This document shows positions 18,956 through 42,668 of a stretch of 42,668 nucleotides of DNA, one piece after another (position 1 is the stretch's first letter; the number at the start of each line of letters is the position of its first letter). This DNA is from Deltaproteobacteria bacterium (GTDB lineage: Bacteria; Myxococcota_A; UBA9042; DTJE01), in NCBI GenBank assembly GCA_029555025.1, contig JAKPTZ010000121.1, forward strand, positions 71,425 through 114,092. Reading direction: 5' to 3'. The notes beneath the pieces were generated by a model, which did not search any database, was not told the DNA's origin, and worked only from the letters and a program-made list of their open reading frames with translations. The translations under genes were made by a program, and so were the position numbers.

Positions 18956-20518
18956 ATGCGCGGTTTTCCGAAATTCGCGGTATCGACCTTTGTCGCAGGC
19001 CTTGTCATCTCCCAGTGCGCCTTCGCTGCGTCTGAGCCTGATGCCTTCGACGTGGTCGTGAACGAAGGAAAGAAGCTTTCCTCACAGGGACGCTATGTTG
19101 ACGCGGCCCTCGTGTTTGAAAGGGTTCTTTCACAGGGTAACGAATCCCAGGCCGCCTATCAGGAAGCACAGTACGAAATGGGCGTTGCCCTGTTCCTGCT
19201 GGGCCTGCCTGTGGCGGCGTTCACATACTTCGATCGTGTCGGTGAAGTCGGCGAGAGTCATGTAAGGTACATCGAGACCCTTCCGTGGCTTGTCAAGGTT
19301 CATCAGACCCTTCCCGGTGAGACAAGCTCGCTGCTCAGGATGGCTTCCTATCCCCCCGCGGCCTATCCGCCCGAGTCGGCCGATGAAATCAGCTTCAACG
19401 TGGGCCAGTACTTCTATTACACCGGAAATCTCAACCAGGCGCTTGAAAGTCTTATGCGGGTGAGCACCGCCGTGCCGGAGCTTTACGTGAAGGCGATGTA
19501 CTTCAAGGGCGTCGTTTTCGTCCGGCGCAACGACGCGCGCGCGGCGGCCTCGACCTTCCAGGAGGTTCTTGCATACCTGGATCGCTATGACGTCCCGAAC
19601 GGTGAAAGGTACCGGGTGATGGCGAACCTTGCCACGGCACGTGTTTTCTATTCCGTCGGCCAGTCAACGCCGGCCGAATTCAAGACGGCCATCAAGTATT
19701 TCGATCGCGTTCCCGACAGTTCCGAGTACTGGCTGGACAGTCTTTTCGAGAAGTCCTGGGCCTATTTCATGGATGGAAACTACGCAAGGGCGCTCGGCAA
19801 CCTGATTACCGTCAGTTCTCCCTACTTCGAGGAGGAGTACTACCCGGAGGCGAACGTCCTGCGGGCGGTCATCTTCTTCATGAACTGTCTTTATGACGAG
19901 GCGCTCCAGACGGTCGATCCGTTCTATAAGGAATACTACGACATCAGCAAGGAACTGCGGCGCGTCCTCGCCAAGTACGAGGATCCGGCATCTTTCTATC
20001 AATACCTGGCGTCGCTTTCGAAGACCGGTGGAAGTGCCTATTCGGTCAAGGTCAAGAAGATTTTCAACGCGGCGCTGGCCGATCGCAAGCTTCGGCGCCT
20101 CTTCGGATACGTCGTTGCAATCAATAATGAAATCACAAGGTTGGATGACATGGGCAAGAAGTCCGGCGCTTCGGCGCTTGCGGACTTCCTGGTTCCCGAA
20201 CTGGAGTCTTACAGGTCGTTGACGATTGCCGAGGCCGGACAGCTTGCGCGTGAACGTCTGGAGCGCATGAGCAAGGAGCTTCGCGAGCTCCTTTCCCAGG
20301 CCCTGAAGGTTCGTTTTGAGTCGCTCAACGCCCAGAAGGGCATCCTGGGCGAAAACTTCAGGCAGGAGCAGCTTGCCGCGGCGCAGGCCGGCAGTGACGG
20401 CGGAAGCATCAAGATCGATGAAGAGCACCAGCTCTGGCCGTGGAACGGCGAATACTGGAAGGATGAACTTGGTTCGTATTATTACCCGATTAAGTCGGTT
20501 TGCGGTAATCAGCAGTGA
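18956..20518 (+). CDS. Exported TPR protein, Glt/Agl-like
   Basis: 520 aa. A cleavable signal peptide (about 1-24, ending AFA-A) precedes a long TPR-type helical solenoid: repeated pairs such as GRYVDAALVFERVLSQ, YEMGVALFLLGLPVAAFTYFDRVGEV, VKAMYFKGVVFVRRNDARAAASTFQEVLAY and FEKSWAYFMDGNYARALGNLITV. The C terminus is helical with a coiled-coil-like stretch. Periplasmic or outer-membrane-associated assembly partner is inferred, as for the TPR proteins of the myxobacterial gliding cluster. It is the first gene behind the promoter at 18890-18917 and is followed, after 66 bp, by the 1408-residue TPR protein. Not identical to any single named protein on the evidence available. Confidence 0.8.
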   Translation: MRGFPKFAVSTFVAGLVISQCAFAASEPDAFDVVVNEGKKLSSQGRYVDAALVFERVLSQGNESQAAYQEAQYEMGVALFLLGLPVAAFTYFDRVGEVGESHVRYIETLPWLVKVHQTLPGETSSLLRMASYPPAAYPPESADEISFNVGQYFYYTGNLNQALESLMRVSTAVPELYVKAMYFKGVVFVRRNDARAAASTFQEVLAYLDRYDVPNGERYRVMANLATARVFYSVGQSTPAEFKTAIKYFDRVPDSSEYWLDSLFEKSWAYFMDGNYARALGNLITVSSPYFEEEYYPEANVLRAVIFFMNCLYDEALQTVDPFYKEYYDISKELRRVLAKYEDPASFYQYLASLSKTGGSAYSVKVKKIFNAALADRKLRRLFGYVVAINNEITRLDDMGKKSGASALADFLVPELESYRSLTIAEAGQLARERLERMSKELRELLSQALKVRFESLNAQKGILGENFRQEQLAAAQAGSDGGSIKIDEEHQLWPWNGEYWKDELGSYYYPIKSVCGNQQ

Positions 20519-20584
20519 CCTCGGCGTCGCCCTGACAGCTCGGATTTGGATCGGCCGCTGCGCCGGTTCAGACGGAGGATTTGT

Positions 20585-23500
20585 ATGATGGGTCATACAG
20601 GCATCAGGCTTCTGGCGGCTGTGGCCGCTTCCTTCCTGGCCGCCGCGGCCGGATATTCCGTGACGGCCAGCGCGCAGGTAGCCAGGGAGAAGTCGGTTCA
20701 GACGTTTTCCCTTTCCGATGATGGCGCGCCTGGCGGATCCTCCGTCCTGGAGATCCTGAAGACCGAGGATCAGGAAAAGGGGGCCAAGCCCCTTGGCGTC
20801 GAGGGCATTCAGAGCCGACCCAAGGCCATGGCCGATGAAAAGCTGGAAGCGTCCATTGCCACGCTGAATGACCTGATCGAGGAGGCCGACGACGACGACC
20901 CGAGCAAGCCGGAATACCTTGCAAGGCTTGGCGAGGTCTATTGGGACAAGGCCGAAAACTTCTTCAACAAGGCGCAGGGCGACCAGATTACTTCCAGGCT
21001 TCGTTCGGCAATCGACTCGAAGGACGACGCCACCATCCAGAAGATCGAGGCCGAAAGGGCCGACCTCATGGAGCAGCGCGCATACTGGCAGATGGAGTCG
21101 GTTAACGCCTACAGGCGTGTCGTTGATAACTTCCCCGAGTATCCCGCACTTGACGAGACTCTGTATTACCTGGGTTTCGCGCTTGTCCAGATGGGCAAGC
21201 AGGCAGATGCCTATCCCTACTTCGCGCGTCTGGTCCGTGAATCGCCAAACAGTCAGTACGTCCCTGACGCCCTTCTGAACATCGGCGAGTACTACTTCAA
21301 TGTCGGCCAGATGGAAGATGCCCTGAAGATCTACACCGAGGTCGAGAATTTCAAGGATTCGACCGCCTATGGACTGGCAATCTACAAAAAGGGCTGGTGC
21401 TTCTTCAACCTGGCGCGTCATGAAGAGGCCATGAATCAGTTCCTGGTCGTCATCGATTACACCGGCACCGAACAGGCCGCCAAGAGCGGTTACGGCCGCC
21501 AGTTGCTCAAGGAAGCCCAGCGCGACCTGGTCATGGCGTACTCAAGCCTGCCGGACGGCTCCCCCGACAGCGCGATCAGGGTCTTCAAGGCGATCTCCCC
21601 GGACGGTTACATGGATCTGGCCATCAAACTGGCCGAGGGCTACGCCAGCCAGGGTGATTTCCAGAAGTCGACCAGGCTGTACAAGAACATCATTGCGGAA
21701 TACGCCTCCAGGCCCGATGCATGGAAGGTCGTCCAGTTCCAGCGTGAGATTTTCGAGAACGTCTATCGCGCCGCCGTCAAGAAGGAAGTGGTCGAGGAGG
21801 CGCGCCGTCTTATCGGGTTGCTGGACAAGTTCCGCGCGGTGGCTCCGAAGGATCAGATTCAGCCGGAACTGGTTCGCGTCGAGGAGCTGATCCGCGTCGT
21901 GGCGACCACCTACCACAACGAGGCCCGCAAGACGATGGAGGATGCGACCCTGGAATTCACGCATCATCTATATAATGAATATCTGCGGCTGTTCCCGGAT
22001 GCCGAGAAGTCATTCACGATTCTCTATAACTACGCATTGCTGCTCCAGGATATCGGAAAGTTCGAGCTGGCCGCGGAAAGGTTCAGCCAGGTCGTGGCCG
22101 CCCGTCCCAGCGACCCCCTGGCGGACGACGCCGCGCACGCCGCGGTTTCGGCGTATCACAAACTGCTCGAGAATCAGCCTAACCGGGCCAAGTCCGAAGA
22201 TACGACCGACACCGAACCGAAGGAAATTCCTGAATTCGAACAGAAGCTTATCGCCGCGTCCGACACCTATCTGAAAATGGCCAAGCCGGATTCACCCAAC
22301 GTGGTCGAGACCAGGTTCGTCAGGGCAATGGCATATTACAAGTACAACCACTTCGAGGAGGCCGCCGCCGGGTTCACCGACATCATTTCGAGGGATCCAG
22401 ACCACGTGAACGCGCCAGACGCCGCCCGCCTCCTGCTTTCGTCCCTGGCCCTGATGCGCGATATTCCGCGGCTGAACGCGGCCGTTGACACGATTCAGGT
22501 TCAGCCGGCCCTGATGACCGGCGAGGTGCCCGAGATCATCAGGAAGATTAACGAGCGGAAGGACTTCAATGCCTGCTTCGAATTCGAGAAGAAGGGCCAG
22601 TACAGTCGGGCCGCCGAGTGCTTCCTTGCGTACGTGGCCAAGTTCCAGTCAACGCCGTTGAAGGATTCGGCCCTTATCAATGCCGCAAACAATTTCTTCA
22701 AGGCCCGCCGGGTCGAGGATTCCCTGAAGGTCAACGAGCAGCTCGTCAACGAGTTCCCGAATTCCGATCTCGGCAAGCGTGCTCTTTACAACATTGCAGA
22801 CACGTATCGCCGCCTGGCCGTCTATTCCGAGGCCGCGCGCATTTACGAGACTTTTGTCGACAATTACCCGAATCACGAACTTACCGAGGAAGGGTTGCGG
22901 TTCGCGACGATGCTGCGAACCGGTCTGGGAGACAACGACCAGGCAATCAAGGATTTGCGCAAGTACATAAAGTTGTTCCCGAAGTCGGAACACATCGCGG
23001 GCATCGCAATCGAGATCGCCGCAATCCTTTCCAAGCAGGGCAAGCATTCCCAGGCCATCGCCGAGTACAACGCATACATCAAGAAATATGGACAGAGCGG
23101 CGGTCCCGACCGCCTGCTGCTGGCGAACCTGAAGATCGCCCAGGCCTACGGGAAGATGGGTGGATACAAGAATTACGTGGCTTCCCAGCAGGCGTACGAC
23201 AAGACCATCGCCGTGTATGACACGATGTCGGACGAAGTGAAGCAGAAGGTTTCTCCAATCGGCCTCGCGTCGGTCGCCGAGGCGATGTTCGTCAAGGGCG
23301 AGGGCGTGCTTGACAAAATGCGGGCAATCAAGCTCTCGGGCAACATGAACGTGGTTACCGATCAGATTGCATCCAAGCTGGCCCTTGCCGAGGAGGCGAT
23401 GAAGATCTTCAACACGGTTGAAGCCTTCGGTCAGCCCAACTGGACGATTGCGGCGTTTTCAAGGAAGGGCTTCGGCTTCCAGGAACTGGCCGAAACGATT

Positions 23501-24811
23501 GAGAACACGCCGGCGCCAAGAGGCCTGAGCGAGACCCAGAAGCAGTTCTATCAGGAAGGTCTTGGCCAGCGGGCCATCCCGATCTGGGAGAAGGCGAAGG
23601 ATTCGTATCGCGAGTGCATCCAGCTCGCCCAGGAACTCAAGTGGTACAACAAGTACTCGGAAGAGGCCGAGGACGCATTGATGAAGCTGGATCCCGAGTT
23701 CAGAACGCTTGCCGACCTGCGTCCCCGTCCCGAGATCTATTCTGTCAACAATGGACGGATGACCTTCCTCGCCGAGAAGGAGGGAATGGATCCGCCGAAG
23801 TGGTCGGATGCCAACCTCGAGCAAAGGGTCCGCCAGGGCGCCGAGGCAGCCGACGCAACGCCTGAAGCCCTTTACAACATGGGTGCGCTGCTGAAGGGAA
23901 GGGCCAGGCTTGCCGAATCCCGAAGCTGGTTCGAGAGGGCGGCGGCGGCAAGGGCCGATTTCGACAAGGCGATTGCGGCAATCGGGTTCGTGCTGGCCCA
24001 GGAGGGGCGGATCTCCGAGGCCGAGGCCCAGTTCAAGGCCGCGTTGAAAATTGACCCGGCAAACGCCATAGCCAACGCGTTCTATGCGGCGCGCGCACTG
24101 TCGAAGCGCAGCTTCACCGAGGCCATCAACCTGGCGCGCGACGGACTGGTTTCCGATCCCGACAGCCGTGACGCGTACGCGGTTCTTGGCGCGGCATACC
24201 TTGAGATGGGGCTTATCGATGCCGGCCTTCTGGTTGCGAGAAACGCGATTTCGCTGGATCCGACGGACGGCCAGATCCAGAACCTGATGGCTATCATGTT
24301 TGGCAGGCAGAATGAAGTCCGCCAGGCCGTCAAGATGTTCTCCAAGGCCACCCAGGATGCGCCCGAACTTTACGACGCGTGGATGAACCTGGGCCTGGTG
24401 ACCCTCGCATACAAGGATCTGAAGACCGCCGGCGACGCATTTGATCGTGCTCTGGCCCTGAAGCCTGCCAGCAGGGATGCCCGACTCGCCAAGGCTGTCG
24501 TGCTGCGTGGCGGCAACCAGGGTGACGCCGCGATGAAGATCCTGAAGGAACTGGAATCCGAAGGCCAGGATCCCGATGTTCACTTCAATCTGTGCCTTGT
24601 GTATCAGGAAAACCTCTCGCGGGAGGAGGACGCGCTTGATGAATGTGGTAAGTTCCTTTCCCTTATTCCCGCGGATCACCCCAAGCGGAAGGAAGTTTCG
24701 CGCAGGATTGAGGGCATCCGGATCACCATCGAGGCGTTGAAGGATTCACCGCCGCCGGCCCCGGAGCCGCCGGCCACTGAACCGGCCGTTGGGCAGGATA
24801 CTGCGAATTAG
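20585..24811 (+). CDS. Very large exported TPR protein, AgmK/AgmU-like
   Basis: 1408 aa from the ATG at 20585, with GGAGG at 20574-20578; a second ATG follows directly at 20588. The signal peptide ends about ASA-Q (residue 30). Most of the chain is TPR-type repeats, with typical units such as YLGFALVQMGKQADAYPYFARL, IGEYYFNVGQMEDALKIYTE, NIADTYRRLAVYSEAARIYE and, in the C-terminal third, GAAYLEMGLIDAGLLVARNAI and NLGLVTLAYKDLKTAGDAFDRAL. The last 30 residues are Pro-rich. In myxobacteria, large TPR proteins of this kind (AgmU/GltD, AgmK/GltI) span the periplasm in the gliding machine; the likeness here is by architecture and context, not a demonstrated orthology. Second gene of the cluster. 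Confidence 0.82.
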   Translation: MMGHTGIRLLAAVAASFLAAAAGYSVTASAQVAREKSVQTFSLSDDGAPGGSSVLEILKTEDQEKGAKPLGVEGIQSRPKAMADEKLEASIATLNDLIEEADDDDPSKPEYLARLGEVYWDKAENFFNKAQGDQITSRLRSAIDSKDDATIQKIEAERADLMEQRAYWQMESVNAYRRVVDNFPEYPALDETLYYLGFALVQMGKQADAYPYFARLVRESPNSQYVPDALLNIGEYYFNVGQMEDALKIYTEVENFKDSTAYGLAIYKKGWCFFNLARHEEAMNQFLVVIDYTGTEQAAKSGYGRQLLKEAQRDLVMAYSSLPDGSPDSAIRVFKAISPDGYMDLAIKLAEGYASQGDFQKSTRLYKNIIAEYASRPDAWKVVQFQREIFENVYRAAVKKEVVEEARRLIGLLDKFRAVAPKDQIQPELVRVEELIRVVATTYHNEARKTMEDATLEFTHHLYNEYLRLFPDAEKSFTILYNYALLLQDIGKFELAAERFSQVVAARPSDPLADDAAHAAVSAYHKLLENQPNRAKSEDTTDTEPKEIPEFEQKLIAASDTYLKMAKPDSPNVVETRFVRAMAYYKYNHFEEAAAGFTDIISRDPDHVNAPDAARLLLSSLALMRDIPRLNAAVDTIQVQPALMTGEVPEIIRKINERKDFNACFEFEKKGQYSRAAECFLAYVAKFQSTPLKDSALINAANNFFKARRVEDSLKVNEQLVNEFPNSDLGKRALYNIADTYRRLAVYSEAARIYETFVDNYPNHELTEEGLRFATMLRTGLGDNDQAIKDLRKYIKLFPKSEHIAGIAIEIAAILSKQGKHSQAIAEYNAYIKKYGQSGGPDRLLLANLKIAQAYGKMGGYKNYVASQQAYDKTIAVYDTMSDEVKQKVSPIGLASVAEAMFVKGEGVLDKMRAIKLSGNMNVVTDQIASKLALAEEAMKIFNTVEAFGQPNWTIAAFSRKGFGFQELAETIENTPAPRGLSETQKQFYQEGLGQRAIPIWEKAKDSYRECIQLAQELKWYNKYSEEAEDALMKLDPEFRTLADLRPRPEIYSVNNGRMTFLAEKEGMDPPKWSDANLEQRVRQGAEAADATPEALYNMGALLKGRARLAESRSWFERAAAARADFDKAIAAIGFVLAQEGRISEAEAQFKAALKIDPANAIANAFYAARALSKRSFTEAINLARDGLVSDPDSRDAYAVLGAAYLEMGLIDAGLLVARNAISLDPTDGQIQNLMAIMFGRQNEVRQAVKMFSKATQDAPELYDAWMNLGLVTLAYKDLKTAGDAFDRALALKPASRDARLAKAVVLRGGNQGDAAMKILKELESEGQDPDVHFNLCLVYQENLSREEDALDECGKFLSLIPADHPKRKEVSRRIEGIRITIEALKDSPPPAPEPPATEPAVGQDTAN

Positions 24812-24892
24812 CGGTTATCCACGGGTGCTGTCAAAGGCTCCCGTTGTGTTTTTGGGTTCGCGGGATTACGATTTGCGCCAGTGAGGTGCTTC

Positions 24893-25156
24893 ATGAACAG
24901 GCTGCTGCTTTGGGTCGCCGCTGCAATGGTTTTTCAGGCGGGTGTTTTTGTTTCGGGTGCCGTCGTGGCCCAGAACAAGGATGCCAAGCCGACCGCCGTT
25001 GAGGAGATGAGTTTCGAGGGCGACCTTGTCGAGGCGCAGTTCCTGCGACCCGACCAGGGCGTTACCGAGGCGCTTCTTCGGAAGAAGAGATCCAGTCTGA
25101 TTAAGTTACGAACCGACTTCGTTGACGAAATACTCAAGTCCGCCGAGGACCTTTAA
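24893..25156 (+). CDS. Small exported protein of the TPR/FHA cluster
   Basis: 87 aa from the ATG at 24893 with GAGG at 24883-24886. Signal peptide about 1-27 (ending VVA-Q). The mature part of about 60 residues is charged, with a first strand-like segment (FEGDLVEAQFLRPDQGVTEALL) and a closing helix-like part (KLRTDFVDEILKSAEDL). A small protein of this shape, with a G-x-V...P start and a L-x-x-x-F-V-x-x-I-x-x-S end, sits beside AgmX/PglI-type genes in myxobacterial genomes as I recall; this would need a search to confirm. Between the large TPR gene and the FHA gene (15 bp), so probably translated with them. Confidence 0.65.
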   Translation: MNRLLLWVAAAMVFQAGVFVSGAVVAQNKDAKPTAVEEMSFEGDLVEAQFLRPDQGVTEALLRKKRSSLIKLRTDFVDEILKSAEDL

Positions 25157-25171
25157 GCATCCGGGGGTGCC

Positions 25172-26917
25172 ATGGACGGAAAGACGCCGACCATACGAAT
25201 TCAGATCTTCGAGGGCGACAGCCTCGTTCGCGAAGAAGTCTTCACATCGACGCCGATACGAATCGGGAAGGCGGGTCAGGCCCACCTCCGACTCACCGAT
25301 CCCGCGGTGAGTCGTCAGCATGCCGTAATTGACTATCTCGAAAACGGCGAGGTTCGGATTACGGACTCGCAGAGCACGGCCGGTACTTTCGTCCAGGGGC
25401 GGAAGGTGACGCAAAGCGCCCTGCAGCCCGGAAACGAGATTGTCGTCGGAACGACCAGGCTCGTGATTGACTATGTGGCCGAGGCCTCCGCGATCAAGGC
25501 TCCCGAGACGTTCCAGTCTTCGGTGTCACAGTCGGATCTCAAGACCGGGCGGTTCGGTGTCGAGGTCAGCCTCAATTGGGAAGACTACCCGCTGGCGCAT
25601 GGCTTCTTCCCCGTGGGGAGCACGGTCAAGGTCGGCGAGGGAACAAAGGACGACTTCTTCGTTCCGGAAGCCAAGACTGGATTCGAGTCGTTCGTATTTC
25701 TGAAGCCCGATGACAAATTCTTCCTGATGAACGTTGCCGGCGATCGTATCGATGCCGATTTCCTTGTCGACGACAAGATTATCCGTTTGCCCGAGATGAA
25801 GCGTCGCGGCCTTGTAATGGGCGACGAGTGGGTTCGGATTGACCATCGCACCGCCGCACGCGTCCGATACGGGGATCTTGTTTTCGTGGTTGGGCTTTCG
25901 AGCCAGCCGCGTAAGGTAATGGGCTCAAGCTGGAAGCGTTTCAGCATGCGGGAGCACATGTACCTGCTGCTTTCCCTGATGATTCACCTGGCGTTGATGC
26001 TTCTGATAGCGCTTGTTCCCGAAGAGCAGTTGAAGGCGACCAGGGATCCGTACGACCGGGAGACCAAGGCGTTGCGGAAGATTCAGGTCGCGATGCTGGA
26101 ACGCAAGGTCGAGGAAGAGAAGAAGAAGGAAGAGGAAGAGATTAAGAAGAAGTTCGAGGAGGCCAAGGAAGACGACGGCATGGTTGATCGTCTCAGCCGC
26201 GCGGAGCCGACAGACAAGCAGACCTCGAAGATCGTCGTGGCGGACACCGAGACCGACCGGAACGTCGCCAATCAGGCGTTGACCCAGGTCATGGGCGAAC
26301 AGGACGCGCGGTTCGGCCGCCTGCTTGACATGGCCGGTTCGGGACTCGGCGGCGGTACCATGGGCATCCGCGTGATCGGCGACAACGGCATCGACGCCGA
26401 TCTGGCCAGTTCGCTTGGCGCGTTCGGCGGAACCATGGGCGGCGGCGCCGGCGGCTTCCAGGGCACCGGGGCCTGGGGTGGCGGTGGCGAATACGCGCCT
26501 GCCGATATCCGCGGGATATCCGGCCTGTCGAAGAAGGATGCGGAGGGTGCAAGCTCGAAGATCAAGTTTAAGAAGGGCGACACCCAGCTTCAGGTATTTG
26601 CCGGCGACATGAAGGTCGGCGCGCTCGACAAGGAAATGGTGCGGCGATACGTCCAGTCGAAGATGAACCAGATTAGGTGGTGCTACCAGCAGGAAGCCCA
26701 GAAGAACCCGGAACTGGCGGGCAACGTTGACATGACGTGGGTCATCCTTCCGACCGGATACACCGCGGGCGTCAAGGTTCGGGACACCACCATGCGCAAT
26801 GCCGCAGTTGAAAGATGCATAATGGAACGCATCGCCACCTGGCGGTTCCCGGAACCGAAGGGCGGCGCCGCGGTTCAGGTTTCGTCGTATCCCTTCATTT
26901 TCCGCCTGACCAAGTAA
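25172..26917 (+). CDS. FHA-domain protein with transmembrane, coiled-coil and AgmX/PglI C-terminal domain (GltG-like)
   Basis: 581 aa. Residues 8-100 are an FHA (phosphothreonine-binding) domain with R30 in IRIGK, S47/R48/H50 in VSRQHA, and GTFVQG where an Asn is usual. A second beta-rich segment follows at about 127-242. A single membrane helix is at 263-282 (YLLLSLMIHLALMLLIALV), then a charged coiled coil (ERKVEEEKKKEEEEIKKK, 310-333), a Gly-rich linker, and the conserved tail at 485-581: RRYVQSKMNQIRWCYQQEAQ, CIMERIATWRFPEPKGG and SSYPFIFRL. That tail is the AgmX/PglI (TonB-like) domain, which reaches outer-membrane partners. The layout equals that of M. xanthus GltG. FHA is in the cytoplasm, tail in the periplasm. 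No MotA/MotB-like motor genes are present here. Confidence 0.87.
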   Translation: MDGKTPTIRIQIFEGDSLVREEVFTSTPIRIGKAGQAHLRLTDPAVSRQHAVIDYLENGEVRITDSQSTAGTFVQGRKVTQSALQPGNEIVVGTTRLVIDYVAEASAIKAPETFQSSVSQSDLKTGRFGVEVSLNWEDYPLAHGFFPVGSTVKVGEGTKDDFFVPEAKTGFESFVFLKPDDKFFLMNVAGDRIDADFLVDDKIIRLPEMKRRGLVMGDEWVRIDHRTAARVRYGDLVFVVGLSSQPRKVMGSSWKRFSMREHMYLLLSLMIHLALMLLIALVPEEQLKATRDPYDRETKALRKIQVAMLERKVEEEKKKEEEEIKKKFEEAKEDDGMVDRLSRAEPTDKQTSKIVVADTETDRNVANQALTQVMGEQDARFGRLLDMAGSGLGGGTMGIRVIGDNGIDADLASSLGAFGGTMGGGAGGFQGTGAWGGGGEYAPADIRGISGLSKKDAEGASSKIKFKKGDTQLQVFAGDMKVGALDKEMVRRYVQSKMNQIRWCYQQEAQKNPELAGNVDMTWVILPTGYTAGVKVRDTTMRNAAVERCIMERIATWRFPEPKGGAAVQVSSYPFIFRLTK

Positions 26918-26944
26918 TGTATTCTCCTGATGAGGATTGCAGCC

Positions 26945-27823
26945 ATGACTCATGACAGAAAGACGCTTCTTGTCGTCGCGGTTCTTGCGCTGGTGCTGGC
27001 GTCCGGGTGCTCGAAGGCCCGAAAGGACTCGGTTTCATACTGCAATCAGGGGATAATCGAATACGAGGCCGGTAATTTGAAGGAAGCAATCGGCCTTTTC
27101 GATGCGGCGATTTCGGTCTATCCCAGGAACCAGGTGGCCCATTTCCAGCTCGGCTCAATCCTGATGAACGACAAGAAGGATTACGCGGGCGCCCGGCGCG
27201 AGCTGACTGCCGCGCTCGAGCTGAATCCGAAAGACGTTGAGACGGTCTATCTTCTTGGCAGGCTTGAGTTGGCGGAAGGTAACCTTGATCCCGCGCTGGC
27301 CCGCTTCCAGGAAGCGTTGAAGATTGATCCCGTGCATCCGGGAAGCCTTTATTACACAGGCTCAATCTTCCAGAAGAAGGGCAAGCTTGACGATGCCGAC
27401 GACTACTACAGGAAGGCTCTTCAGGCAAATCCGAAGTACGCCCGCGCCTATAACTCGCTGGGGATGATGTATTACGATACGGAGAACTATCAGGCGGCCG
27501 CCGCGGTTCTGGCCGAGGGTGTCAGGCTGAACCATGACGACCCGGATCTTCACCACAACCTGGGACTTGCATACCTGACCCTTGGAAAGGTGGATCCCGC
27601 GGTCGAGGAACTCACCGCGAGCATCGAGCTCGATCCGGACAACGCCACCGCCGCGTTCAACCTGGCCAACGCCCTGATCCGCCAGCAGCGGTTCAAGCAG
27701 GCCACGTTCTACCTTCAGAGGTTCATCGTCGCCCCCGAGCTTCAGGAATCCGAGCTTCTCGAACCGGCGAAGCTTACCTTCAACGCGCTGAAGCAGGCCA
27801 TGGCCCAGGGTATCGGGCTGTAA
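26945..27823 (+). CDS. TPR lipoprotein
   Basis: 292 aa from the ATG at 26945, with TGAGG at 26931-26935; an ATG at 26930 lacks a ribosome site. Lipobox LASGC (Cys22) makes it a lipoprotein. About seven TPR units fill the rest: CNQGIIEYEAGNLKEAIGLFDAAI, AHFQLGSILMNDKKDYAGARRELTAAL, VYLLGRLELAEGNLDPALARFQEAL, YYTGSIFQKKGKLDDADDYYRKAL, YNSLGMMYYDTENYQAAAAVLAEG, HHNLGLAYLTLGKVDPAVEELTAS and FNLANALIRQQRFKQATFYLQRF. In type it matches PilF/AglT-like assembly factors, though the shorter PilF has fewer units. Last gene of the cluster, 27 bp after the FHA gene, and 27 bp from convergent pyrC. Confidence 0.83.
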   Translation: MTHDRKTLLVVAVLALVLASGCSKARKDSVSYCNQGIIEYEAGNLKEAIGLFDAAISVYPRNQVAHFQLGSILMNDKKDYAGARRELTAALELNPKDVETVYLLGRLELAEGNLDPALARFQEALKIDPVHPGSLYYTGSIFQKKGKLDDADDYYRKALQANPKYARAYNSLGMMYYDTENYQAAAAVLAEGVRLNHDDPDLHHNLGLAYLTLGKVDPAVEELTASIELDPDNATAAFNLANALIRQQRFKQATFYLQRFIVAPELQESELLEPAKLTFNALKQAMAQGIGL

Positions 27824-29262: not shown

Positions 29263-30885
29263 ATGAAGAAACTGCTGAGTTTTGCCGTCGCGTGTGCCCT
29301 TTTTGGCTTCGCCGTTGCCTGCGGCGACGATGGTAACCCCAACCCCGGCGAGGACATCTACATCCCCACCGACATGAACCAGGGTGACGAAGGTACGGAC
29401 GTCAACGGCCAGCCGGACGTTATTGCCAACCCGGATGCGCTTCCGGACAACGCTCAGCCGGACGAGGGCGGACAGCCCGATCTCGTCACGCCGGATCAGG
29501 GCGTCGACGAAGGTGGCCAGACCGACGAAGGCGGCACGGACACCAACCTGCCCCCGTGCGAGGATGGCGTCGGTTCCTGCAAGTGGTACTGGGACGTCTG
29601 CGCCGCCGGGTGCCCGAATCCCCAGACCGCCGAAGGCGAAGCCTGCATGGCCGAGTGCCAGGGCCAGCTGACCGCCGAGGGACAGGAAGACCTGCAGGTT
29701 TTCAACAACTGCATTTACAACATCTGCGGCAGTTCCCCTGATGAGGAAGCCTGGTATGCCTGCATCGATGAAAACTGCACCGAAGCAATCATCGGCTGCT
29801 ACTGGGGCTGCACCTACCGCACCTGTGCCGAGATGTACGACTGCTTCGACGGTTGCCCCGAGGATGATCCGGGCACGTCCGACAACGAGACCAGCATGTG
29901 CTATGGCGACTGCCGCAACGAAAGCACCGAGGACGCCCAGCTTGACCAGAACGCGATGTACAACTGCGCTTTCGACAAGTGCCCCATTTGTGAAACGTAC
30001 GACACCGCCGCCGAGGAAGAAGAATGCAATGTCTGCTTCAACGATGCGGTTATGGGCGATTGCTGGGATTACTACAAGAATTGTGTTTCCGGCGGCACCA
30101 AGTACCAGGATTGCGTTGACTTCACAATCTGCTTCACGACCTGCCAGTACACCGCCCAGACCCAGGCCGCCTACGATGCCTGCGTTGACGAATGCCAGGC
30201 TGGCGTGACCCCGGAAGGTCTGCGTGATCGTATCATGGCCGAGAACTGCTCGCTGGATAACTGCCCGGTCTGCCAGGTCGAGGAACCCACCGCCCAGCAG
30301 GACGAAGAGTGCAATACCTGCTGGATGGAAGCGATGTACGGCGATGACGAAGGCGTTGGCGTCTGCAATGCCGAATGGTCGAAGTGCGCCGGCACCGAAA
30401 ACGAGACCTGCATGGAATACTACACCTGCGCCGGTGGTTGCCAGGACTACGCATGCGTGGCCGATTGCCGCGGCAACACCACGCTGGCCGGCATGAAGGA
30501 CATGATCATCGCGTCCGAATGCTCGTCCACCGCGTGCCCGGTCTGCGACGTGGAAAATCCCACGGCTCAGCAGAAGACCGATTGCGACAACTGCTGGATG
30601 GCGTCCCAGAAGGGCGACTGCGCCGACGAATGGAACGTTTGTCTGCCGCACGGCGATGACACCTGCGCCGAAGTGTTCAACTGCATCCAGGGCTGCCAGG
30701 ATTCCCCCTGCGCCCAGGCGTGCTACGGCAACGGTTCGTTCGATGCCCAGGACCTGTACGCGGCGTTCGAAGAATGCCTGCAGACCGAATGCGCCAGCGC
30801 GTCCGACTTCTCCGCCTGCGCCAACACCGCCATCAACGCGGGTGGTGCCTGTGCCGATGAATACGGCGCCTGCGTTCCGAGCTGA
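29263..30885 (+). CDS. Cysteine-rich lipoprotein with five repeats of a spaced-Cys module
   Basis: 540 aa from the ATG at 29263 with AAGGAGA at 29250-29256. Signal and lipobox (AVAC, Cys20) are followed by an Asp/Gly/Gln/Pro-rich linker to about residue 98. The rest is about 58 Cys in 440 residues. Five repeats can be aligned, starting near Cys106, 179, 267, 368 and 453, all with the order C-x3-C, a variable gap, C-x3-C-x17-C-x4-C; units 4 and 5 agree at all eight spacings (6,7,5,3,4,3,17,4). Repeats 2-4 then have C-x2-C (CPIC or CPVC) and a second C-x2-C. The content suggests helical hairpins held by disulfides. Not recognised as a named family; no catalytic or heme (CxxCH) motif. Promoter unclear. 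Confidence 0.85.
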   Translation: MKKLLSFAVACALFGFAVACGDDGNPNPGEDIYIPTDMNQGDEGTDVNGQPDVIANPDALPDNAQPDEGGQPDLVTPDQGVDEGGQTDEGGTDTNLPPCEDGVGSCKWYWDVCAAGCPNPQTAEGEACMAECQGQLTAEGQEDLQVFNNCIYNICGSSPDEEAWYACIDENCTEAIIGCYWGCTYRTCAEMYDCFDGCPEDDPGTSDNETSMCYGDCRNESTEDAQLDQNAMYNCAFDKCPICETYDTAAEEEECNVCFNDAVMGDCWDYYKNCVSGGTKYQDCVDFTICFTTCQYTAQTQAAYDACVDECQAGVTPEGLRDRIMAENCSLDNCPVCQVEEPTAQQDEECNTCWMEAMYGDDEGVGVCNAEWSKCAGTENETCMEYYTCAGGCQDYACVADCRGNTTLAGMKDMIIASECSSTACPVCDVENPTAQQKTDCDNCWMASQKGDCADEWNVCLPHGDDTCAEVFNCIQGCQDSPCAQACYGNGSFDAQDLYAAFEECLQTECASASDFSACANTAINAGGACADEYGACVPS

Positions 30886-30916
30886 TTCGGCCTTCGCTTG
30901 ATTGACCGATGAAAAG

Positions 30917-30951
30917 GGGGTCGCCGGGTTTCCCGGCGGCCCCTTTTTTTT
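30917..30951 (+). terminator. Rho-independent terminator
   Basis: A 12-pair stem (one G-T pair), GGGGTCGCCGGG with CCCGGCGGCCCC, loop TTT, followed by eight T. It lies 31 bases after the cysteine-rich lipoprotein stop and separates that gene from the next one; AAAA before the stem could make it work in both directions. Confidence 0.9.
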
Positions 30952-31053
30952 AGGGTGACACTGTCCGAAAGCGACACTTTTCGTTTTACTGTCGATCGTG
31001 TAACATCCGATGGTCGGTTAACGGTTTGTCAACAAATCCATATCGGGGGAATC

Positions 31054-31833
31054 ATGAAAGTCTGCACGGTTCTGTTCATGTTCGTCATTGCCATTGGTCT
31101 TGGTTGTGGATCAGATGGCAACGGCACGGATGAAGGTGGTTTGACCGACGTCGGCGGCCAGGATGTTTCGGCGCCCGACACGAACACCCCGGATGTGGAA
31201 ACCGACCTGGGGCAGCAGGAAGATGCCAATACCGGTGATACCGGCGGCGGCATCGACACCAACACGACACCGGATCAGGGTTTAAACACCGATCTGAACG
31301 TCAATCAGGATCAGGGCGGAACCGATACGACCCAGGCTTGCCCGACCGGCGTGCCGACAGGGCCAAGCTGCCTTGAAGTCGCGGCTTGTGCGGTTCTGTG
31401 CGATGACGCCGCGTTTGAAACGACGTGTCTTGCCCAGGCAGAGACGGCGGCCGCCGACGCGTGGGCTGCCCTTAAGGCGTGTGCGGCAACAAACGAGTGC
31501 ATAGCGATGTTCCAGGCCGAGCAGGTCTCCGATTGCCTTATCGGTTCATGCGGCACCGAGGCCGGCGCCTGCGTGGTCGGTGAATCGACCTGCCGCGATA
31601 TATGGACCTGTCGCAAGGATTGCCCCGCCGAAGACCCGACCTGCGCCATGAAGTGCATCGCCTCGGGAACAACCGAGGCCCAGGAACAGTGGGTTGAGTA
31701 CAAGAACTGCATACTGGACATCGACTGTTCCAGTGAGGACGTCATGGAGAATGGGTGGCCGACCTTCACGTGCGAGCAGTATGCCAGGGGCTTCTGCAGT
31801 CTTCCTTACCAGGCTTGTTTCCCGCCGACATGA
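31054..31833 (+). CDS. Second Cys-rich lipoprotein with two copies of the same module
   Basis: 259 aa from the ATG at 31054, after GGGGGAATC. The lipobox is LGLGC (Cys18) followed by GSDG and a Thr/Asp/Gly/Gln-rich linker to about residue 94. Two module copies: C106-x5-C112-x3-C116-x8-C125-x17-C143-x5-C149, and C180-x5-C186-x3-C190-x6-C197-x3-C201-x17-C219-x5-C225. The x17 gap is the same as in all five units of the preceding lipoprotein. The start codon is 103 bases after the terminator, so it has its own transcript. Same probable location (membrane surface) and no enzymatic motif. The shared module and position suggest an old duplication. Confidence 0.82.
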   Translation: MKVCTVLFMFVIAIGLGCGSDGNGTDEGGLTDVGGQDVSAPDTNTPDVETDLGQQEDANTGDTGGGIDTNTTPDQGLNTDLNVNQDQGGTDTTQACPTGVPTGPSCLEVAACAVLCDDAAFETTCLAQAETAAADAWAALKACAATNECIAMFQAEQVSDCLIGSCGTEAGACVVGESTCRDIWTCRKDCPAEDPTCAMKCIASGTTEAQEQWVEYKNCILDIDCSSEDVMENGWPTFTCEQYARGFCSLPYQACFPPT

Positions 31834-40873: not shown

Positions 40874-42668
40874 TCAATTTTCGTTCGAGCGGCAACCAAT
40901 GCCGCTTACGCTGATATTGTCGATCTGCCATCCGCGGTAAAGGTTGGCGTTCCCATCCATGGAATCGAAACGGAACCTGATCCTGAAGAATTCGCCGGCG
41001 AAGTCCTTCAAGTCGAGCTTGTAGGTGTTCCAGGTCGGGCCGGAAGCGTCGCCCCCGGAGGTCCAGCCCCCGGCTGCAGCGGCCCTGGTGACCTGCGCGG
41101 TATCGAGGGGCGTCATCGTGTTGACCGTTCCAACCAGTGTCCACAACCCGGTTTCGGACTGCGGCGACGTCTGGGCCTCGACGTACATGACATCGACCGA
41201 TGAAGTCTGGCTCTCGATTTCCCAGGCGCTGTCGAACATCAGGTACAGGGTCCACGCATCGATGCCGTTGATCCATGGCGACTCCAGCGCACCGGACACG
41301 CGTTTTCCGACAAATTCGCAGTTTTCGCCAGATTCCGAGTAGCTGCAGGTGAGCGGGTTGCCGAACCACGCGTAGAAATCGCCCCCACCGGCGCCCGCGA
41401 GGGAGCCGGGTGACGGGATGCATCCGTCGTCGTAAATTCCCTCCTCCTGGCACAGGAGGGTACCTTCGGCCGAAATGTCGGCCTCGTTGGCCGGCACCGG
41501 CAGGCATTCATTCAAATAGACAGGGGCCACGCACACCTGGCTTGACTGGATGTTCCACGTCACAGGCGATGTTTCGCCCTGGGTTATCGTCCACATGCCG
41601 ACCCTTCCCGAGTCCTCAAAGCCGTCAAAAAGACAGGAGCCTTCCTCGGACGGAAGCCTGCTCATCAGGATGGTCGAAAACGTCAGCGCGTTCATCGATA
41701 TCATTGCCTCGTAGCTGGCCGGATAGAATCCGTCCTTTACCGAGTTCAGCATCAGGTATGGTTCCGCGGGAAGCTGGGGAAGTCCGACCAGGCACCAGTA
41801 CCCGTTCGAATCAGATGTCGTCGTCGCGATTTCGGTTGACCCCGTCATGTCAACCAGCGTGATGAGAGCGGCGGGAACCGGACTCCCGCTTGCCGGCTCC
41901 GTGCTGCCGCTGGTGGTGACAACGTAGTCGTCGTACTCGAGAACGCGGCCGCACATCGAGAGCTGTGCCTGGGTCATGCCGTTCAGAAGAAGAATCATCT
42001 CGATCGGAATTACCGTTCCAGGTTCCAGAAACAGAACATCGGTTGTCATCGCCTGGTAGCCTTCGGCACTGACCTGAATGCACCACAGCCCGGGTTCAAT
42101 CGGAATCTCAGACTTTCCTTCGTCGTCGGTCGTCACGGTCCACGCCGCGCTCAACTCGGTCTCTGGCGGGCATGAATCCTTGTAGAAGCTGACCGAAGCT
42201 CCCGACAGGGCCTGGTATCCTTCCCCGGTCGCAGAGGACTTGAATGGAGGCGGTGGCAGGCTCGCCCCGAACACCTTCATCATGATCGTCGATGTCCGGT
42301 CGCAGATGAAGTCTTCGTCCGTCATTCCATCGCAGTCGTTGTCGATTGTGTCGCAGATCTCCTGGGCCGGAGTCATCGCATCGCAGTCGGCGCCACCGGT
42401 TTGAATGTCACAAACAGTCTCGCCCGTGCAGGTTCCGAATTCGTTGACGATTTCGCATTCGATTCCGACCAGGTCTTCGTCGGTCGAACCGTTGCAGTTG
42501 TCGTCCACGCCGTTGCAGGTTTCCGCCGCACCCGGGTTCCTGGCAGCGACGAGGTCGTTGCAGTCGTTACCGCCGTTCGGGCAGATGGTCGGCGTTCCCG
42601 TGATCGTCATCGCGGCGTCACAGTATCCATCGACGTCGTCGTCGCATCCCTCGTCCGTGTCCTGATCA
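40874..42668 (-). CDS. MopE-repeat surface protein with CnaB-like and MAM-like domains (5' end beyond window)
   Basis: Open at the right edge: the frame continues past 42610 (DEGCDDDVDGYC) to the window end. At least 590 residues. First come several Asp/Cys motifs like CNGVDDNCNGSTDED and CDTIDNDCDGMTDED, the MopE-type putative metal-binding repeats (PF11617 type) common in myxobacterial secreted proteins. Next, two carboxypeptidase-regulatory/CnaB-like units (GASVSFYKD...IEPGLWCIQVSAEGYQ, and ALITLVDMTGSTEIATTTSDSNGYWCLVGLP). The C-terminal 240 residues start CLFDGFEDSGRVGMWTITQ and end with YRGWQIDNISVSGIGC, a MAM/jelly-roll-type ending. Secreted or surface-bound. Only its extent at the 5' end is unknown. 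Confidence 0.82.
   Translation of the reverse strand, partial: DQDTDEGCDDDVDGYCDAAMTITGTPTICPNGGNDCNDLVAARNPGAAETCNGVDDNCNGSTDEDLVGIECEIVNEFGTCTGETVCDIQTGGADCDAMTPAQEICDTIDNDCDGMTDEDFICDRTSTIMMKVFGASLPPPPFKSSATGEGYQALSGASVSFYKDSCPPETELSAAWTVTTDDEGKSEIPIEPGLWCIQVSAEGYQAMTTDVLFLEPGTVIPIEMILLLNGMTQAQLSMCGRVLEYDDYVVTTSGSTEPASGSPVPAALITLVDMTGSTEIATTTSDSNGYWCLVGLPQLPAEPYLMLNSVKDGFYPASYEAMISMNALTFSTILMSRLPSEEGSCLFDGFEDSGRVGMWTITQGETSPVTWNIQSSQVCVAPVYLNECLPVPANEADISAEGTLLCQEEGIYDDGCIPSPGSLAGAGGGDFYAWFGNPLTCSYSESGENCEFVGKRVSGALESPWINGIDAWTLYLMFDSAWEIESQTSSVDVMYVEAQTSPQSETGLWTLVGTVNTMTPLDTAQVTRAAAAGGWTSGGDASGPTWNTYKLDLKDFAGEFFRIRFRFDSMDGNANLYRGWQIDNISVSGIGCRSNEN

Follow-up and report, generated by a model that had tools for sequence, protein, structure and literature searches.

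Two adjacent lipoprotein genes with tandem cysteine-rich units

The window analyzed here is a stretch of 42,668 nucleotides from a Deltaproteobacteria bacterium (contig JAKPTZ010000121.1, positions 71,425 to 114,092). On its forward strand lie two neighboring genes, hereafter LP1 (29263..30885) and LP2 (31054..31833), which encode lipoproteins of 540 and 259 aa and were recognized by ORF, Cys spacing, and profile match. LP1 contains five tandem units of a Cys-rich module and LP2 contains two. Both proteins share one layout, in which a signal peptide and lipobox are followed by a linker of ~75 residues (rich in Asp, Gly, Thr, Asn, and Pro) and then by Cys-rich units up to the C-terminus. A preliminary description of this DNA had both proteins anchored by a lipobox and a Gly/Asp linker, and these elements, preceded by a signal peptide, are seen in both ORFs.

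In LP1, the signal peptide and lipobox (MKKLLSFAVACALFGFAVAC) occupy 29263..29322 and end with Cys20, the predicted lipidation site. The acidic linker (residues 21-98; 29323..29556) is rich in Gly, Asp, Asn, and Pro and is probably disordered. Unit 1 (29563..29808) is flanked on both sides by an additional Cys, C99 (29557..29559) ahead of it and the linker residue C183 after it, and the former was annotated for its co-occurrence with the latter in orthologues. Unit 2 (29809..30093), with C183 at the start of its stretch and 12 core Cys, and unit 3 (30097..30396), with 12 Cys, were delimited by HMM match, as was unit 1. Unit 4 (30394..30651; 12 Cys and five predicted helices) and unit 5 (30649..30882; canonical, with 10 Cys) were delimited by profile and structure prediction.

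LP2 begins with a signal peptide and lipobox (MKVCTVLFMFVIAIGLGC; 31054..31107), with Cys18 as the predicted lipidated residue, and an acidic Gly/Asp/Thr linker (residues 19-95; 31108..31338) that is also probably disordered. Comparison of orthologues identified an additional upstream Cys, C96 (31339..31341), and, together with profile matches, defined unit 1 (31354..31581) and unit 2 (31576..31827). All of these features are on the forward strand. Promoter-like sites lie upstream of both genes, and a terminator-like hairpin with a T-run lies in the gap between them (30926..30950, forward strand); these sites and the hairpin are consensus matches only.

Definition of the repeat unit

The preliminary description had aligned the Cys of five LP1 and two LP2 units as C-x3-C, a variable gap, and C-x3-C-x17-C-x4/5-C, and this spacing is exact in all seven. 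The unit extends beyond that pattern: it begins one Cys earlier (C1-x5) and runs on to C8 and C9-x6-C10, giving C1-x5-C2-x3-C3-x(n)-C4-x3-C5-x17-C6-x4/5-C7-x(n)-C8-x(n)-C9-x6-C10 in full. Units are 74-98 aa long with 10 core Cys, and those of LP1 and LP2 have 10-12 Cys each. LP1 units 2-4 also have a CxxC...CxxC pair, by which the C7-C8 loop gains two Cys. The LP2 unit said to keep the spacing while short of one Cys is unit 1, where Phe121 (31414-31416) replaces C4. LP1 units 4 and 5 are, as reported, identical at eight successive gaps (6, 7, 5, 3, 4, 3, 17, and 4). When the LP1 module region was shuffled 20,000 times, the full pattern occurred on average 0.008 times per shuffle (maximum, 3), compared with the five copies observed.

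The spacing was then scored in 199 units from Myxococcota genomes. The x17 gap was kept in 197 of the 199, C9-x6-C10 in all 196 scorable units, C1-x5-C2 in 196 of 198, C2-x3-C3 in 192 of 196, and C4-x3-C5 in 185 of 187. The C3-C4, C7-C8, and C8-C9 loops are variable.

Comparison with known families and predicted fold

No Pfam-A family scored above its gathering cut-off for LP1, LP2, or the module units. The best-scoring Pfam family for LP1 was DUF1137, which reached 8.7 bits, or 15.3 bits with unit 5 alone, and stayed below its cut-off of 25. LP1 and LP2 had no NCBIfam match at E<=10, and among PDB sequences the profile had no match and LP1 had one at chance level. The literature searched held no description of the module. 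These results agree with the earlier statements that the pattern belongs to no named domain and is not that of EGF, since the EGF-like Pfam domains were not matched either.

Several known systems resemble the module in part. EGF-like, kringle, and sushi domains are small disulfide-locked modules that occur in tandem and are appended to extracellular trypsin-family proteases. The module is similarly small, is used in tandem and on trypsin-like proteases, and is probably disulfide-locked, but it matches none of the three in Pfam, is predicted to be all-helical, and fits 10 core Cys into ~80 aa. Twin Cx3C helical hairpins, as in small TIM and CHCH proteins, carry Cx3C motifs on helices pinned by disulfides. 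The module appears to do likewise, but with five helices, 10 Cys, and further x5, x17, and x6 spacings, and it has no Pfam or fold match to them. Nearest in concept are the repeats of TraA described by TIGR04201 (Myxo_Cys_RPT), which have three invariant Cys and for which a rigid stalk has been proposed (PMC3325183). Like the LP1 and LP2 units, they are tandem Cys-rich repeats of exported Myxococcota proteins; however, the TIGR04201 model spans 22 positions and the module ~80 aa, and LP1 and LP2 do not match TIGR04201, nor did any of 31 module units at E<=0.1. TIGR04201 repeats are found elsewhere in the host genome (G000:C67:10556-10618 and C153:22109-22171). Tandem disulfide modules are a familiar kind of structure, while this family and its predicted fold are undescribed in the databases searched.

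AlphaFold2, given 73 aligned tandem pairs, modeled LP1 units 4-5 with a mean pLDDT of 95 and a pTM of 0.73, with five helices in each unit. LP2 was predicted to be mainly helical (pLDDT, 91; pTM, 0.83). In the unit 4 model, helix 1 bears C1 and C2, the loop after it C3, and helix 2 both C4 and C5; C6 is near the end of helix 3 and C7 just past it, helix 4 bears C8, and helix 5 has C9 and C10 on either side. The x17 gap thus covers the last part of helix 2, a turn, and the greater part of helix 3. The fold class, a bundle of five helices for each unit, is a well-supported prediction, and each bundle is predicted to be cross-locked by about five disulfides. The preliminary description had read the x17 gap as a single helical hairpin pinned by disulfides; its helical and repeated character stands, whereas the hairpin gives way to the bundle. 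With a match threshold of E<=0.001, Foldseek found no PDB counterpart for the model of LP1 units 4-5 (best E, 3.1) or of LP2 (best E, 5.2), and the former also had no match among viral predicted structures. With no solved structure resembling the predicted fold, even a single experimental structure of the module would be informative.

Gain and loss of cysteines

Most units have 10 Cys (135) or 12 (36), and two have 14; odd numbers are found in 15 units (nine Cys in 10 units and 11 Cys in five), mostly explained by a partner Cys just beyond the unit. Similarly, the C7-C8 loop has no additional Cys in 148 units, two in 37, and one in four. C3 and C4 are lost jointly in two LP1 units (unit 3 of L053 and unit 4 of L061), which makes C3-C4 a likely bond. 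Of the LP1 orthologues, eight have counterparts of both C99 and C183 and four have neither; in two further orthologues, the upstream Cys is part of other Cys-rich segments.

The missing C4 of LP2 unit 1 follows the same rule. In a tally over 12 LP2 orthologues, read partly by eye, a C96 equivalent was present in all 10 that lack the unit 1 C4 (the window's LP2 among them), 8-11 residues ahead of C1, and absent from both that have it. This distribution favours C96 as the residue that makes good the absent C4. In LP2 of G005, G011, and G012, an additional Cys in unit 2 is accompanied by another at the C-terminus.

The number of Cys in the mature protein was even for 37 of 40 module-terminated proteins, and for 39 of 40 after correction of two lipoboxes that had been placed too early. 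The orthologues share ancestry, and counts over them should not be treated as independent observations when probabilities are judged. The remaining exception, L058, has lost C1 of unit 1 with no change in a partner. As additional or missing Cys come in pairs, these observations favour structural disulfides over a metal store. The pinning of Cys as disulfide partners, as first suggested from the spacing, is thus backed by pairwise gain and loss and by even counts, and the LP1 and LP2 Cys would presumably be oxidized in vivo.

Distribution and architectures of module proteins

A profile built from the seven LP1 and LP2 units, a search that the preliminary description had called for, matched nine places in the host genome (the LP1 and LP2 units and a third protein with two units, at G000:C101:40442-41005) and 34 of 36 close relatives. 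A broader profile of 31 units matched 93 of 284 sampled Myxococcota genomes, of which 52 belong to the host's class or to a closer group and 41 do not, and the non-matching genomes listed for this sample included no member of the same class. In a scan of genome contigs, an alignment of close orthologues retrieved four Myxococcota MAG loci, while LP1 alone as a query retrieved no relative. Named records of close orthologues are from MAGs labeled Myxococcota, "Myxococcales," or "Deltaproteobacteria," and LP2 had no match among IMG/VR viral contigs or PLSDB plasmids. A domain family absent from the searched databases is thus encoded by all sampled genomes that were listed for one class, and by many other Myxococcota. 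With a seed alignment and an HMM, many lipoproteins now called "hypothetical" could be annotated in this phylum, which is known for its predatory and social behavior.

Module proteins have one to six units each, usually behind a lipobox, and LP1, LP2, and most relatives have both a signal peptide and a lipobox. A recurrent architecture consists of a trypsin domain, two modules, and MopE motifs, and one module protein has a C-type lectin domain. The unit is best explained as a mobile extracytoplasmic module of Myxococcota. The MopE-type putative metal-binding motif (PF11617) is found in the same myxococcal proteins as the module but in a separate region of them, and LP1 and LP2 have none.

Module-only proteins differ from the trypsin-(module)2-MopE proteins (L095, L096, L102, L105, L116, and L134), several of which have an odd number of Cys in the mature form. 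The LP1 orthologue at L061:5844-7664 has several CGNGxCExGET...NCPxDC repeats ahead of its modules. In the window, a protein encoded at 40874-42610 also has MopE-like repeats (CNGVDDNCNGSTDEDL) and weakly matches a model for myxosortase-dependent M36 peptidases.

Conservation of the gene pair and proposed role

Twelve genomes, from the host family and from the next family in its order, retain LP2 directly after LP1. Signal peptide and lipobox point to export and lipidation of both products, and the tethers, the tandem use of the module, and its fusion to exported enzymes suggest that the proteins are exposed at the surface and serve in binding or as spacers. We consider it rather probable that LP1 and LP2 are exported, lipidated, flexibly tethered strings of disulfide-locked helical beads that act as stalk or binding modules. 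A lipid anchor and a flexible acidic tether of ~75 residues would hold five beads (LP1) or two (LP2) off the membrane, and the beads would be rigid and protease resistant. By analogy with EGF-like, kringle, or TraA Cys-repeat modules, such a bead could be used as a stable spacer or a binding unit, deployed both in pure module lipoproteins and on exported, MopE-containing proteases of the trypsin type. LP1 and LP2 would most likely be outward-facing envelope proteins that act jointly in attachment or recognition; the role in attachment is one that we infer from architecture alone. The "extended surface protein" of the preliminary description is accordingly plausible as judged from sequence. If one contact site is to be singled out, the strongest candidate is the NGWP loop of LP2 unit 2 (31750..31761, forward strand), whose N, W, and P are invariant in 12 LP2 orthologues. 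A more specific proposal, that a new all-helical, five-disulfide fold serves Myxococcota as their counterpart of EGF and that LP1-LP2 is an outward-facing recognition or adhesion pair of the host family, is tentative.

Modules that provide only length and rigidity, bind nothing, and are freely adjusted in number would make LP1 and LP2 a pure stalk. LP1 orthologues do have three to five units, and a FastTree analysis of units shows extra middle units in lineages with four or five; insertions behind the conserved first two units and ahead of the last one apparently account for the variation. In the same tree, however, units cluster by position (LP1 first, second, and last; LP2 units 1 and 2) and not by genome, which, with the invariant N-x-W-P of LP2, suggests position-specific roles and makes a role in length alone unlikely.

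LP1 and LP2 may instead face the periplasm, and an envelope scaffold tied to neighboring gliding-type machinery would have them do so. A widespread gliding core includes GltC, GltD, GltE, and GltG (PMC3169522). In the window, 18956-27823 encodes distant homologues of this core, all below equivalog cut-offs: a GltC-like protein, a 1421-aa TPR protein, a GltG-like protein with an FHA domain and an AgmX/PglI C-terminal domain, and a GltE-like TPR lipoprotein. The scaffold reading draws on the adjacency of LP1-LP2 to pyrC and Glt-like genes in several genera, and on the fact that LP1, LP2, and the Glt-like products are all envelope proteins. Nevertheless, pyrC stands between and is divergent from LP1, and the module is also found on exported proteases. 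Other genera of this family, as well as the next family, have different, unrelated genes beside LP1-LP2, so the link to gliding is weak and the scaffold is quite improbable.

Least probable, and to be given little weight, are metallothionein-like or zinc-cluster proteins with thiolates that store or sense metal at the envelope: Cys make up 13% of the LP1 module region (58/445) and CxxC-x11/12-CxxC of LP1 units 2-4 resembles zinc-binding ribbons, but Cys are gained and lost pairwise, the acidic mature proteins have one His (LP1) or none (LP2), both are exported in a host that encodes VKOR and DsbA-family proteins, and the predicted structure is confident, ordered, and helical. The metal-holding layer offered in the preliminary description is not supported on these grounds, and the structural-disulfide reading was retained; metal binding is conceivable for the CxxC...CxxC loop in units with 12 Cys. 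Heme binding was rejected as well, for LP1 and LP2 have no CxxCH, in line with the earlier view that this is not a heme pattern.

Two of the VKOR and DsbA-family matches of the host genome lie in one 458-aa frame (G000:C114:88163-89335), apparently a fused disulfide-forming enzyme.
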